Assembly (NCBI RefSeq): GCF_023336905.1
Contig: NZ_JAMBLS010000002.1
Span: 62,001-126,000 of the forward strand
DNA length: 64,000 nt
Origin: Bacteroides sp. ET71
Lineage (GTDB): Bacteria > Bacteroidota > Bacteroidia > Bacteroidales > Bacteroidaceae
Reading direction: 5' to 3'
This document shows positions 2,526 through 10,955 of the stretch, one piece after another (the first letter of the stretch is position 1; each line of letters begins with the position of its first letter). Position numbers and translations under genes: made by a program. The notes beneath the pieces were generated by a model that ran no database searches, was not told the DNA's origin, and was given only the letters and a program-made list of their open reading frames with translations.

Positions 2526-3941
2526 TTAGAGGCTTGCCAGCTTCACCCGAGCATGTGCCTTCGGATAGACCAGGTAGCAGCAGCTTGCCTCCTTCATCAC
2601 GACAGCCTGCGTGTCGCGCTTTGCCAGCTTGGCCATGTCGTACTCTTTGCGGCTCCAGGGGAGGAACGTCTTCTTGCGGAGGTATTCCGGATCAATAACA
2701 AACATCTCGTCGCTCTTCTCGTTCATGTCCATCAGTTCATGGTGCATCACGAGCAGCTTGCCGAAATTGCTGTCGAACGAGGTGAACTTCAGTCCCCAAC
2801 GCTCAAATTCCTTCACCACCTTGAAGCGTTCGCTCTGCATCTTGGCCAGCGTGGCAAGCATCGTACTGCCTGCAAAGCCAACCTTCGTGCCGTTACCAGA
2901 ATCATTGCCGGTAAAGAGGTCTTTCAGGAAATCCACCATCTGATCATCGGTGATAGTTACCGAACCCGATGCAGCCGTACCGATGGACATGTCTTTGCCG
3001 GCCATCCAGTAGATGCCGCCGGTGAAATAGACGTCCGCGCCGCTTTTCTTCGGGTCTTTACTCTTTCCCTTGATGCCGAACAGATAGCTGTTCTCCATAC
3101 CCAGGCGCATGTCATAGATGCCGTCCTCCTCCATGTCGGAGAAATTCCAGTCGACTTTCTTGTCCCACATCTTGTCGAAGGTGGACTGCTCTACCTGCAT
3201 CATGAACTTCTGGCAATACTGCTCTTCCGGCGTGGGCAGGTTATAGAAGTTGCCGGTCTCCACGTCGATTTCCGAAGCGGCACGGCCCATACGGATAAGG
3301 ACAGTATCAACATTAATCTGAGGTACCAGGCTGTTCGTACCGTCACTGTTCTTCTTACCGTTGACGGCAATCACCACCGGATAGCCAGTTTCGTCGTTCT
3401 TACCCACGACATACAGCATCAGGTCTTTCGTGTCCTGCGTGGCACCGTCGGCCTGGAATCCCTTCACACCCACCACGCGGATAGTGTCCGTCAGCGAGAA
3501 GATGGAACCATCGTCCACCTGCACCGTCGTAGATGCCTGGCCGCTCGTCATGGCCGTAACAGCAGTCTTGACTGCCGTCTTAATGGGACGGGTAGCCACG
3601 CTGTAATACTGTACAATCATGCTACCGCTTCTTGAAATCGTACTGGCACTTCGCGTTATCTGGTCAATAGGCGTGCGCATAGGACGCATCTTGGTGATAC
3701 GCTTATCCACTTCCTTGGCATAATAATCCGGATCATCATCCCCGGTCTGTTCAATACCAGTCGTTGCCGTGGCACCACCCAGCGAGTTGGTAATGTTCTT
3801 ACCCCCATCTGCCATATCCGTTGCCTCACCGCCCATGGCAGTGGCAGCCGCCATACATACACCCGTCACCGAGCTGACCACGATGGCCAGCAACATCAAC
3901 AATGCCTGGCCAAACCATTGATAGATTTTCTTCCCTTTCAT
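2526..3941 (-). CDS. Probable major capsid protein with signal-like N-terminus
   Basis: A 471-residue protein encoded directly after the scaffold-like gene, the usual place for the major capsid protein. The body (about residues 75-471) contains features consistent with an HK97-type shell protein: a long alternating central region, a DKMWDKKVDWNFSDMEEDGIYDMRLG segment, and a C-terminal stretch with MFVIDPEYL and RDTQAVVMKEASCCYLVYPKAHARV, resembling the P-domain end of phage capsid proteins. Unusually, residues 1-36 look like a signal or transmembrane segment (MKGKKIYQWF, then a hydrophobic run to about residue 30, then small residues). An A/G-rich leader sits before the ATG at 3941, whereas the internal ATG at residue 30 has no obvious ribosome site, so I keep the long form. 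Capsid identity is inferred from position and size rather than a diagnostic motif. Confidence 0.65.
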   Translation of the reverse strand: MKGKKIYQWFGQALLMLLAIVVSSVTGVCMAAATAMGGEATDMADGGKNITNSLGGATATTGIEQTGDDDPDYYAKEVDKRITKMRPMRTPIDQITRSASTISRSGSMIVQYYSVATRPIKTAVKTAVTAMTSGQASTTVQVDDGSIFSLTDTIRVVGVKGFQADGATQDTKDLMLYVVGKNDETGYPVVIAVNGKKNSDGTNSLVPQINVDTVLIRMGRAASEIDVETGNFYNLPTPEEQYCQKFMMQVEQSTFDKMWDKKVDWNFSDMEEDGIYDMRLGMENSYLFGIKGKSKDPKKSGADVYFTGGIYWMAGKDMSIGTAASGSVTITDDQMVDFLKDLFTGNDSGNGTKVGFAGSTMLATLAKMQSERFKVVKEFERWGLKFTSFDSNFGKLLVMHHELMDMNEKSDEMFVIDPEYLRKKTFLPWSRKEYDMAKLAKRDTQAVVMKEASCCYLVYPKAHARVKLASL

Positions 3942-5015: not shown

Positions 5016-5462
5016 ATGAGAAAAAAAGGAAGCGTTTTCATCCTATCGGACAGCAGGAACCGGGATTTGCTTCGTGCCTACAACGAGCAAGTGAAAAAAC
5101 AGTTGCGCCTCTACGGACGGGTCACCAAGACGGGACTTATCGAACGTACCGTAAGTTCCCCGGCCTCCCGATTCTGGGTGTCGTCCGAAAGGGCTTGCGT
5201 CATTATCTACCGGCTGGAGAAAGGGGAATCCATCGGATATATGAAGCGGAACAAACTGCGGTTCTACATGGAGCTGTACAAGGCGTTCTGCCTGTACCGT
5301 GAGCAGCATCCGGAAATCACCTGCGTCAAGCACCTGGTGGAAATCGTAGTCATGCAGCCAGCTCCCTGTTTTCCCATAACGCCACGTGTGGCACGTAATA
5401 TCATCGAAAAAATGCGTCGGAAATGTCAACAGGAAAAAATAAACAGACTAAACGGAAAGTAA
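5016..5462 (+). CDS. Small basic phage protein, first gene of packaging operon
   Basis: A 148-residue basic protein. Its centre (RTVSSPASRFWVSSERACVIIYRLEKGES) is compact and looks conserved in character, followed by a helical region and a C-terminal PITPRVARNIIEKMRRKCQ helix that could bind nucleic acid. It is the first gene of the plus-strand operon; its last 40 bases overlap the rhomboid gene, so the two are probably translationally coupled. Because it precedes the large terminase, a DNA-recognition role (small terminase or regulator) is possible, but no helix-turn-helix can be assigned with confidence. I do not recognise the family. Confidence 0.5.
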   Translation: MRKKGSVFILSDSRNRDLLRAYNEQVKKQLRLYGRVTKTGLIERTVSSPASRFWVSSERACVIIYRLEKGESIGYMKRNKLRFYMELYKAFCLYREQHPEITCVKHLVEIVVMQPAPCFPITPRVARNIIEKMRRKCQQEKINRLNGK

Positions 5463-5923
5463 TCGCGTCGCTTTTACTGCTTAATGTCTATTTATGGATG
5501 CCGATGGAATATATTCCGGATTTCGCGGCATCCTTCAATGCTGCCTGGTACACTCATTTATGCAGCCAGTGGGCACATGCCGGATTGTTCCACCTGATAC
5601 TCAACCTGTATGTGCTTTGGTTCTTGCAGTTTACATGGAAGGAATTAGGGATAGCTTACCTTATCTCCATACCGGCCACCTTTGCCTCTCTTTCCGGCTC
5701 GGTGGGATTCAGTTCGGTCATTTATGCGTTAATGGGCATGAAGCTGTCGCAAATACGAATACCTGTCCGGGAATGGATATTGTTCTTATCCGTAAACGTA
5801 GCCACGGCGTTTGTGCCGGCTATTGCTTTTGGCGTACATGCCACAGCGTTTATCATAGGATTCTTTTACAATAAAATCAGAAGACTGTCCGATGAGTATA
5901 GAGGAGCTTGTAAGCGAGGATGA
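5423..5923 (+). CDS. Compact phage-encoded rhomboid-family intramembrane serine protease
   Basis: A 166-residue, six-helix membrane protein (approximate helices 12-28, 54-70, 75-90, 95-107, 117-133, 135-150) with all rhomboid signatures in order. In helix 2, AHAGLFHLILN gives H52, H57 and N61, matching the HxxxN pair that forms the oxyanion site of GlpG. Helix 4 has GFSSVIYALMG, matching GlpG GLSGVVYALMG, with S97 as the nucleophile. Helix 6 has GVHATAFIIGF with H139 as the catalytic base. The GxxxG-like and small-residue packing in helix 4 and 6 is also present. It is shorter than most bacterial rhomboids and lacks extra domains. It overlaps the upstream gene by 40 bases and the terminase gene by 32 bases, so it belongs to the same transcript. 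The substrate is unknown; family identity rests on the motifs I can see, the function as a phage protease is inference. Confidence 0.85.
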   Translation: MSTGKNKQTKRKVIASLLLLNVYLWMPMEYIPDFAASFNAAWYTHLCSQWAHAGLFHLILNLYVLWFLQFTWKELGIAYLISIPATFASLSGSVGFSSVIYALMGMKLSQIRIPVREWILFLSVNVATAFVPAIAFGVHATAFIIGFFYNKIRRLSDEYRGACKRG

Positions 5924-8338: not shown

Positions 8339-10309
8339 TTATGAAGCTGGAGTAGTAGAAGCTTGCGCAGGCAACGCCCCCTGCTGCGCCAGCATCTGCT
8401 GTTGCCGCTCCAGCTCTTGCTTCTGCGTCTGGATGAGTTGGAGCAACTGGTCGCCGAAGGGGAACGCCCCCACCTGGAGCATCTGCTCAATGGTAATCTG
8501 CTTGGCGTTGAGCAGTTGCAACAACAGTTCGTTGTTCAACGCACGGTACACCGGCGTATCGTAGCTCTCCGTGATGGCCAGGTCGAAATCAATGCCTCCC
8601 ATCGTCTGCGGGTCATACCGCACCACCGCCGACCGTCCGGCCACCTTCACCGTCATAGGCTCGTCATAGAATTGCTGGATGTTCTTCAGCTTCTTCTTGG
8701 CATCCGCCGTCAGGAAACTGGAATACGTCTCCAGCAGGTCGATGATGGACGTGGAAGCGTTGTTGGCCTGCTGCTGGTAGAGCACGCCACTGGTACCGGA
8801 CGCTGCCTGTTTCCCCTGCAAAGCCCCGTGCACGCCGCTCACGTCGTCCATCAGTTGCATTTGTAGGGTAATCATGTCCTGCAATCCCTGCACCTTGCTG
8901 CTGTTCACCATCTGCTGTGGTGGCTTGGCACCTTCTTTCAACTTCAACTTGATTACCCCGTTGAAACGTGTCCACTCCTCAGCAATATCCTCGATGTTCA
9001 TATCTTCCGGGATGCTGCTTTCATCCACCACCAACACACCCTTGGCCGAGGCTTTCACGATAAAATCATTAAGAATGATATAATGATTGATATACCTTTG
9101 CTGATCGATAATGTCCGCCACGAACGGATGAATCTCGCCGTCTATGAAAGGATAAGCTTTCACCGTATAGGGATGCTCGCCGTGGGCGTATGGTGATTCG
9201 CCTTCCTCCAGCACATCCCCGAAAGGAGACAGAAAGCGATAATACCAATAGTTTTCGATGATGTACTCATATTCTATCAGCGGCACCCGGTCTTCCGGCA
9301 TGTAGAGACGAATGTTCCCGTTCTCGTCCAACAGATAGTTCCCCGCCGCGTCCTTCATGCGGTTCTCCTCCATGCGGGTGGCATTCTCCTGCCGGATGGT
9401 TTTCAGGTTGTCGTAAGAATCAATGTAGGCATCGCCCTCCAGCCAGTCGTGGCACCACAAAGCCTTCCGTTGTTCCTGCGTCCATACCTCTATGACGCGG
9501 CACAACGTCAGGTCGTAAGGTTGCAGGAAAGATACATAATCATTGGCATTTCGATGGAAGGTGTCGATATAATTTGCCAGCACGTCCCGGTTTCGTGCTT
9601 TCTTATAAATGTCATCCAAGCGTTGCAGGTCGGCATCACTCTTGGCAAAGGCCGAAGCCAACTGCCCGAAAGTGATGTCGTGCAGCTCGCCGATGATACT
9701 CACGTCGTCCATGCGGATGTCGTTCATCTGTCCGTCCATGAAGAAGAAGTTCGGGTTCACATTGTCCGTCCAGCAGTCCTGACGACCGCCGCGCATAGAA
9801 TACACCTCTTTCTGCAAGGCCAGCCCTCCGATGAGGAACTCCTCGAACATACGGGCATCCAATTCTTTTTTGTCGTTCAGCTTGTTGTTATACTCCAGGA
9901 TGGTGCTCATCGTCTCGCCAAGTTTCTGCTCCTCCCTGTCCCGTGCAATGCAGACGGGAGTTTTCTGCTGATTCCGATACACGCCTATCACTATCCTTGC
10001 CAAGCGCCGGATAAGGTTGTTCTTCAGCGGGATGTTCCCCTGCATCCGGATGTATTCCTCCTCAGTGATGGTACGTCCGCAATACTCCACCGGGTCGCCC
10101 CACTGGTCGCCGTACATATACCGTTTGTTCCGTTCACGTTCCTTGCGGTAATGGTCCATGCAGTCCCAGGCACGGGCGGCACGAAACAGAATGTCCATGT
10201 ATCGCTTGTTGCTCCGCTGCTTCTTGTCGTATGCCACGGTGTCCGCCTGCGGCAACGGCTGTTTGGGTATCAGTCTTCTTCTTGCCATTTCTTCTGCTTT
10301 TTGCTGCAA
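8339..10309 (-). CDS. Phage portal protein
   Basis: A 656-residue protein of the size of podovirus portals. The N-terminus holds RYMYGDQWGDPVEYCGRTITEEEYIRMQGNIPLKNNLIRRLARIVIGVYRNQQ, the pattern found at the start of P22-like and related portals (a positively charged helix and the N-terminal wing), then a beta-rich wing domain with FFMDGQMNDIRMDDVSIIGELHD. The C-terminal third has the stem and crown helices and ends with a Gln-rich coiled coil (LIQTQKQELERQQQMLAQQGALP) compatible with a barrel extension. It lies on the opposite strand to the terminase gene and converges with it. Portal identity rests on this layout and length, with moderate to good certainty. Confidence 0.8.
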   Translation of the reverse strand: MQQKAEEMARRRLIPKQPLPQADTVAYDKKQRSNKRYMDILFRAARAWDCMDHYRKERERNKRYMYGDQWGDPVEYCGRTITEEEYIRMQGNIPLKNNLIRRLARIVIGVYRNQQKTPVCIARDREEQKLGETMSTILEYNNKLNDKKELDARMFEEFLIGGLALQKEVYSMRGGRQDCWTDNVNPNFFFMDGQMNDIRMDDVSIIGELHDITFGQLASAFAKSDADLQRLDDIYKKARNRDVLANYIDTFHRNANDYVSFLQPYDLTLCRVIEVWTQEQRKALWCHDWLEGDAYIDSYDNLKTIRQENATRMEENRMKDAAGNYLLDENGNIRLYMPEDRVPLIEYEYIIENYWYYRFLSPFGDVLEEGESPYAHGEHPYTVKAYPFIDGEIHPFVADIIDQQRYINHYIILNDFIVKASAKGVLVVDESSIPEDMNIEDIAEEWTRFNGVIKLKLKEGAKPPQQMVNSSKVQGLQDMITLQMQLMDDVSGVHGALQGKQAASGTSGVLYQQQANNASTSIIDLLETYSSFLTADAKKKLKNIQQFYDEPMTVKVAGRSAVVRYDPQTMGGIDFDLAITESYDTPVYRALNNELLLQLLNAKQITIEQMLQVGAFPFGDQLLQLIQTQKQELERQQQMLAQQGALPAQASTTPAS

Positions 10310-10406: not shown

Positions 10407-10434
10407 TATGACAAATCAGAAAGACAATCGTTTT

Positions 10435-10689
10435 ATGGAAACAACAAAAGACCGCAAAATCACCTCGTTCCGCCTGAACACCTCCTTGGTGGAACGTCTC
10501 AAACAAGATGCCAAACGTCAGAACCGCAGCCTGAACAACTATGTGGAGACCCTGTTGATGGATGCCACCTATCATCGCAAACCGAACGCTGAAACGATGG
10601 CTGCCATTGAGGAGGCACGTCGTGGCGAATATGCAGGTACAGTGGATACAAGCAATCTTGAAGCATTCATTAAATCTATTGAAGGATGA
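10435..10689 (+). CDS. RelB/DinJ-type antitoxin (ribbon-helix-helix)
   Basis: An 84-residue protein from ATG 10435 (METTKDRKITSFRLNTSLVERLKQDAKRQ). The ITSFRLNTSLVERLKQDAKRQNRSLNNYVETLL segment is a ribbon-helix-helix DNA-binding domain: a short basic beta-strand followed by two helices. The C-terminal 40 residues are acidic and flexible, as expected for a toxin-neutralising tail, ending NLEAFIKSIEG. Its stop overlaps the toxin ATG (ATGA), giving coupled translation. Expected to repress its own promoter together with the toxin. It sits on the plus strand between two minus-strand virion genes, so it is an independent accessory insertion in the prophage. Confidence 0.8.
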   Translation: METTKDRKITSFRLNTSLVERLKQDAKRQNRSLNNYVETLLMDATYHRKPNAETMAAIEEARRGEYAGTVDTSNLEAFIKSIEG

Positions 10690-10955
10690 AAACCGTACGA
10701 TTCAGTTCCCAGTTCAAAAAAGACTTCAAAAGGTTTCGTAACCAACCTCGCAAAGTAGAAAGGTTGCTTCAAGTAGTCCGTATGCTTGAGAACGAGGAAC
10801 CAATTCCGCAAGAAATGAAACCCCACATGCTCACCGGGAATTATTCCGGCTGCATGGAGTGCCACATCGAAAGCGACTACCTCCTCATCTGGATGGACGA
10901 GGCGGAACAGGTCATAAAGCTGCTCCGCCTCGGCAGTCATTCGGAATTGTTCTGA
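10686..10955 (+). CDS. YafQ-family mRNA interferase toxin
   Basis: An 89-residue RelE-superfamily toxin that would cut mRNA on the ribosome. The YafQ active-site set is present in the right order and spacing: H47 (KPHMLTG), H60 and D64 (CHIESDYLLIW) and H85 (LGSHSELF); these correspond to H50, H63, D67 and H87 of the E. coli enzyme. The acidic residue before H60 is Glu rather than Asp. The N-terminal QFKKDFKRF helix and basic surface match the family. Encoded directly after the antitoxin with an ATGA overlap. The catalytic residues are intact, so the toxin is probably active when unneutralised. Confidence 0.88.
   Translation: MKTVRFSSQFKKDFKRFRNQPRKVERLLQVVRMLENEEPIPQEMKPHMLTGNYSGCMECHIESDYLLIWMDEAEQVIKLLRLGSHSELF

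Follow-up and report, generated by a model that had tools for sequence, protein, structure and literature searches.

Prohead proteases, which are soluble and work inside the prohead, trim the N-terminus of the capsid protein. We know of no rhomboid described in phage assembly, and to our knowledge the natural substrates of most bacterial rhomboids are unknown. Our literature searches, in a library with few subscription journals and without preprints, yielded no work on phage rhomboids, and none on membrane-anchored or signal-peptide-bearing capsid proteins in tailed phages. In the main text of a 2025 review of rhomboids, the words phage, virus, viral and capsid are absent. Two described systems come close to the one reported here. 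According to PMC3237569, the rhombosortases are a rhomboid subfamily whose distribution matches almost perfectly that of a membrane-anchoring tail (GlyGly-CTERM) on the proposed targets, which led to its discovery. PMC2941825 describes how the bacterial rhomboid AarA removes an N-terminal piece of its target TatA, and gives for TatA and other substrates a motif with a small residue at P1, a large and hydrophobic residue at P4 and a hydrophobic residue at P2'.

Here, we analysed a stretch of 64,000 nucleotides from Bacteroides sp. ET71 (the window), which carries a predicted rhomboid gene among phage head and packaging genes (Table 1). As in the rhombosortase system, a rhomboid is co-distributed with a membrane anchor on its proposed target; the rhombosortase anchor is C-terminal and found on many exported proteins, whereas the phage one is N-terminal and found on one capsid protein. 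The rhombosortase profile (TIGR03902, cut-off 84 bits) gave only 27.1 bits for the protein of phage BS-TP4 (L012) and 13.6 bits for that of a second locus (L014), and did not match the window protein at E ≤ 0.1. The resemblance to AarA and TatA lies in the removal of an N-terminal piece and in the same P4, P1 and P2' motif. Yet TatA retains its membrane segment after the cut, whereas the phage protein would lose the whole hydrophobic segment to leave a soluble shell protein. Like the prohead proteases, the phage rhomboid is proposed to trim a capsid N-terminus; the known enzymes are soluble and inside the prohead, whereas this one would be intramembrane.

Table 1. Features of the window, with positions on the 64,000-nucleotide stretch.
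Feature	Position	Strand	Remarks
Major capsid protein (MCP) gene, SU10-type fold, 471 aa	2526..3941	-	PF17236 4.2e-34, phrog_26635 3.2e-146; proposed substrate
MCP hydrophobic presequence, codons 1-31	3849..3941	-	ends ...TGVCMA; predicted cut after A31
Putative scaffold protein, 282 aa	3979..4827	-	phrog_22323 (function unknown); name by position only
Small upstream ORF, 148 aa	5016..5462	+	phrog_27246; adjoins terL in rhomboid-free loci
Predicted phage rhomboid protease gene, 166 aa	5423..5923	+	active-site residues H52, H57, N61, G95, S97, H139
Ser97 codon (predicted catalytic)	5711..5713	+	G-x-S segment, residues 95-97; aligns with GlpG G-x-S-G
His139 codon (predicted catalytic)	5837..5839	+	invariant in 68/68 distinct sequences
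Large terminase subunit gene (terL), 692 aa	5892..7970	+	phrog_2 1.1e-16; relatives found
Portal protein gene	8339..10309	-	PF16510 2.1e-38, phrog_156 1.5e-69
Small ORF between portal and giant gene	10408..10689	+	overlaps the next ORF
Small ORF between portal and giant gene	10686..10955	+	overlaps the previous ORF
Single giant ORF behind the portal gene, 4656 aa	11003..24973	-	

The sequence-only reading of this DNA had taken the gene for a rhomboid from the placement of H52, H57, N61, S97 and H139, and we confirmed all five at these positions in the translation. The hydropathy plot is compatible with the six segments that it counted, without resolving them cleanly. Against PF01694 the window protein scored 21.1 bits (E-value 3.8e-4), just under the gathering cut-off of 22.6 for a single sequence. 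The profile check that had been proposed thus fails for this protein alone and succeeds for its family, as 16 of 17 members matched PF01694 at E ≤ 0.01 (best 7e-12). A profile built from the 17 members matched GlpG chains (best E-value 1.1e-11) with the H-x4-H-x3-N motif, the G-x-S segment and the second histidine all lined up in the same order, and the alignment of the phage family with ten host rhomboids by hhalign gave a probability of 95.7 (E-value 1.1e-8). Unlike GlpG and other members of PF01694, the phage proteins are compact, at about 155-175 aa among those read, and are encoded by phages in a head and packaging operon. Used as a single query, the window protein gave nothing above noise in the PHROG scan, no match in the PDB sequence search (best 0.45, an interleukin receptor), and no relatives in the viral and genome collections; these were reached only through the family alignment and through terL. 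The matches of the family to PF01694 and of its profile to GlpG support the proposed identity, and the product is almost certainly a rhomboid. The window's own genome also carries two canonical rhomboid genes in tandem (G000:C4:145796-147008), and several further Bacteroidales genomes have similar close pairs.

The active site is conserved throughout the family. Ten relatives with 22-77% identity to the window protein share the invariant columns H52, H57, N61, Y79, G95, S97, G105, P132, H139 and G146. Among 68 distinct aligned relatives, H57, N61, G95, S97 and H139 were each present in all 68, and H52 in 67. The earlier reading had staked its claim on the presence of the dyad in close homologues; it is retained in these and in distant ones. 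The invariant columns rule out a chance ORF, and the invariant Ser-His dyad rules out an inactive pseudoprotease. To judge from these alignments, the phage rhomboids are an active-site family under strong constraint.

The named carriers in the phage collection are three Bacteroides phages, BF1-TP2, BS-TP4 and BKO1-TP3, in which the rhomboid always lies between the small ORF and terL. The label already exists, as two of the three records say rhomboid; the third has the product name "glycoside hydrolase" with a rhomboid note (gp50 of BKO1-TP3). Similarly, relatives of terL in PQ571263, PQ571269 and PQ571277 were deposited as "tail spike protein". In the genus of the window, 6 of 148 other genomes carry the rhomboid. 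We then took 160 loci with relatives of terL, i.e., the best 80 of 575 on viral contigs and the best 80 of 565 on genome contigs. The rhomboid ended at most 120 nt from the start of terL in 68 of these loci, was elsewhere in the stretch in six and absent from it in 75; the remaining 11 had too little upstream sequence. Its position directly upstream of terL, as had been described, is therefore recurrent (68/160). The further claim that the gene is part of the packaging transcript, and not a stray insertion, holds in part. In the window, the rhomboid ORF shares 40 nt with the small ORF and 32 nt with terL, which starts with the ATG at 5892. However, in most loci lacking the rhomboid the small ORF ends at or near the start of terL, and the presence of the rhomboid follows the type of capsid protein, not terL or the small ORF. 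By its position, the small ORF is a candidate small terminase subunit. Beyond the portal gene, the giant ORF possibly encodes a multi-domain injected protein, and the two small ORFs before it look like a toxin-antitoxin pair.

The capsid protein of the window has a basic start followed by a hydrophobic stretch that leads into TGVCMAAATA. We sought the capsid gene in 168 loci (the 160 above, the window, the three named phages and four seed contigs) and located it in 120; the 48 without one were dropped before counting. A hydrophobic N-terminus was present in all 60 loci whose rhomboid adjoins terL and in all eight seed and named loci (68/68), and in none of the 52 rhomboid-negative loci. The best mean hydropathy over 17 residues ranged from 1.65 to 2.75 in the former, against at most 1.49 in the latter. 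We searched the records or genomes of 50 of the 52 negatives for a rhomboid elsewhere, the near-duplicates L049 and L073 being left out. The best match to the family profile anywhere was 35.4 bits, and the same search gave 94-218 bits in 29 of 29 rhomboid-positive controls. Of these 50, 22 were whole genomes and 28 were viral records, where "no rhomboid" means absent from a record that may be a fragment. The pairing suggests a link that is new, in which the rhomboid gene tracks the major capsid protein and not the terminase.

Gene trees point the same way. They were made by quick searches and have many weak branches, which inflates the counts of changes; near-identical rows were removed beforehand (from 128 to 97 for terL, from 115 to 85 for the capsid protein). 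On the terL tree the presence of the rhomboid and that of the presequence each change 12 times, and the two traits agree in each of six independent pairs, taken from supported branches (p 0.031). The rhomboid changes 10 times on the scaffold tree and 12 times on the small-ORF tree, which has few columns; at least four changes are forced by supported branches in each. On the capsid tree, from which the first 70 residues of the protein were excluded, the rhomboid and the presequence change only twice each; the split separates the presequence-bearing types from the presequence-free type B, plus L024. The scaffold and small-ORF genes separate the capsid gene from the rhomboid, so it is the capsid protein that the rhomboid follows, rather than the genes closest to it. 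The contrast of the terL, small-ORF and scaffold trees with the capsid tree rules out simple block transfer along with adjacent genes as the sole explanation. Since both traits change only twice on the capsid tree, their joint pattern largely reflects the exchange of one capsid type for another, and only L024, a single metagenomic contig, is an independent case in which both were lost inside one type. Inheritance of a capsid module may therefore lie behind the pairing.

Such a module would also accommodate a rhomboid directed at the host or at rival phages, in superinfection exclusion, on membrane proteins of the host or in the timing of lysis, its link to the capsid being inherited module structure. 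Rhomboids are general membrane proteases, and BF1-TP2 has other proteins with hydrophobic segments, e.g., gp40, gp45, gp48 and gp67. A strongly hydrophobic stretch of 17 residues occurs in eight of the 67 proteins scanned (the record has 83); within the head and packaging block, such a stretch is confined, apart from a transposase, to the rhomboid and the capsid protein. Three members of the family matched none of the PADLOC defence models at E ≤ 0.1, a late head and packaging operon would be an odd home for a lysogenic exclusion gene, and the link to the capsid type is stronger than that to the neighbours. We consider this explanation quite improbable. Among the three roles that the sequence-only reading had put forward, our results favour the processing of a virion protein, for which the capsid protein is the candidate, and lend no support to superinfection exclusion or host targets.

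Several natural cases bear on the pairing. The contig L024 encodes a type-A capsid protein lacking the presequence, has the small ORF directly before terL, and gave no match to the rhomboid family across its whole 16.7-kb record; its sister L040 has both presequence and rhomboid. In a scan of 80 loci with type-A capsid proteins, 75 had both traits. Among the other five, L191 is the L024 contig again, with neither trait, and L196, L237 and L240 fell outside judgement. At the end of contig L196 (positions 1-680) what looks like the start of a rhomboid ORF continues into one resembling an HNH endonuclease, possibly an interrupted gene. The fifth, L247, is a rearranged contig that kept the presequence, with cellular genes and a transposase in the expected place of the rhomboid, and is a true exception. 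In six Prevotella genomes the rhomboid lies away from terL, and inspection by eye revealed a presequence-bearing capsid gene in all six. We therefore rejected the idea that these loci are capsid-less remnants, the capsid genes being present elsewhere in the genomes. In five of them the rhomboid and the capsid gene are 13.7-16.5 kb apart on the same contig. In the rumen Prevotella (L305-L309) the small ORF and the rhomboid are on one side and the capsid gene at that distance on the other; L305 and L306 have apparently cellular genes in between, and the capsid gene of L306 is broken by stops. Two very divergent phages (L298 and L378) have the same pairing.

The ends of 89 distinct presequences follow the consensus A-x-x-x-G-A-S-S-G-V-x-M-A-x-A. 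When the cut is placed after V-x-M-A, P4 is large and hydrophobic in 87 of 89 presequences, P1 is small in 87 and P2' is hydrophobic in 74 (in the window V28, A31 and A33, respectively). All three positions fit the rhomboid motif, which is loose, in 72 of 89, and a signal-peptidase-like A-x-A pattern fits about as well (78/89). The net charge is positive before the presequence and negative after it in 51 of 51 sequences, which predicts an N-in/C-out topology with the capsid body facing the periplasm. The pairing thereby raises a topology puzzle: the body might be kept from crossing, the presequence might insert in an atypical way, or a share of the copies might be given up. The methionine before the site is encoded by ATG in 46 of 51 distinct capsid genes and could be an internal start. 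There might then be two forms of the capsid protein, a long anchored one and a short one beginning at the conserved methionine, with the rhomboid removing the long form or regulating the ratio. Most rhomboid-negative capsid proteins do start with methionine and a short polar N-terminus. Yet three of the 51 genes have TTT, CTT or CTG at this codon, none of them usual starts, and a short start by itself requires no protease, which leaves this explanation very unlikely.

Host enzymes might also process the presequence, and a distant setting of the capsid gene is relevant here. Beyond the phages, 33 of 393 sampled Bacteroidales genomes encode a relative of the capsid protein. Among the chromosomal phage islands in other genera of Bacteroidales, 24 of the 30 loci read have the presequence; of the other six, three clearly lack it (L334, L335 and L338), one is borderline (L339) and two have doubtful starts (L312 and L313). 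Only one of eight presequence-bearing island genomes (G213) has a rhomboid of the family at E ≤ 1e-3, so the presequence can exist without this phage rhomboid. Given these islands and L247, we rejected a strict one-to-one pairing. These genomes do carry canonical host rhomboids, and host rhomboids or signal peptidase may act on the presequence there. The scaffold and capsid genes of the islands lie among housekeeping genes, with terL at 31, 31, 45 and 13 kb (G411, G444, G182 and G241, respectively) or on another contig. The islands (L370-L377 and L379, i.e., G411, G175, G444, G221, G182, G241, G529, G288 and G213) have scaffold, capsid and sometimes endolysin- or holin-like genes, and frequently recur in all the species sampled from a genus. 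They look like a domesticated element resembling gene transfer agents, for which our literature search found nothing pertinent.

More generally, the presequence could be a signal peptide or anchor for the host signal peptidase or a host rhomboid, with the phage rhomboid otherwise employed and merely part of the same capsid module. The signal-peptidase-like pattern and the seven island genomes without a family rhomboid speak for this explanation. It leaves unexplained that the rhomboid tracks the capsid type over the scaffold, the small ORF and terL, that both traits are absent together in L024, and that both are retained when their genes are 13.7-16.5 kb apart. We regard it as unlikely.

The best-supported reading is that the phage rhomboid is an active protease with the presequence of the phage's own major capsid protein as main substrate, and we hold this to be probable on the strength of the sequence comparisons. 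The capsid protein would be made with its N-terminal hydrophobic presequence (residues 1-31 in the window) and taken to the inner membrane. The rhomboid would be produced late, from the overlapping transcript of small ORF, rhomboid and terL, and would cut the presequence at or near V-x-M-A | x-A. Assembly would then proceed with the capsid protein, or the nascent heads, released by the cut. We infer the cutting, its location, the side of the membrane and the need of assembly for it.

There is perhaps an even chance that a lineage of tailed phages of Bacteroidales has a membrane-anchored major capsid precursor with a dedicated intramembrane protease to release it, its head maturation depending on rhomboid proteolysis at the inner membrane. 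If the proposed reading is true, this rhomboid would be assigned an abundant and specific substrate whose site is conserved, and the shell protein of a tailed phage would pass through the membrane. The loci with and without the pair would then be a natural presence and absence series for rhomboid specificity.
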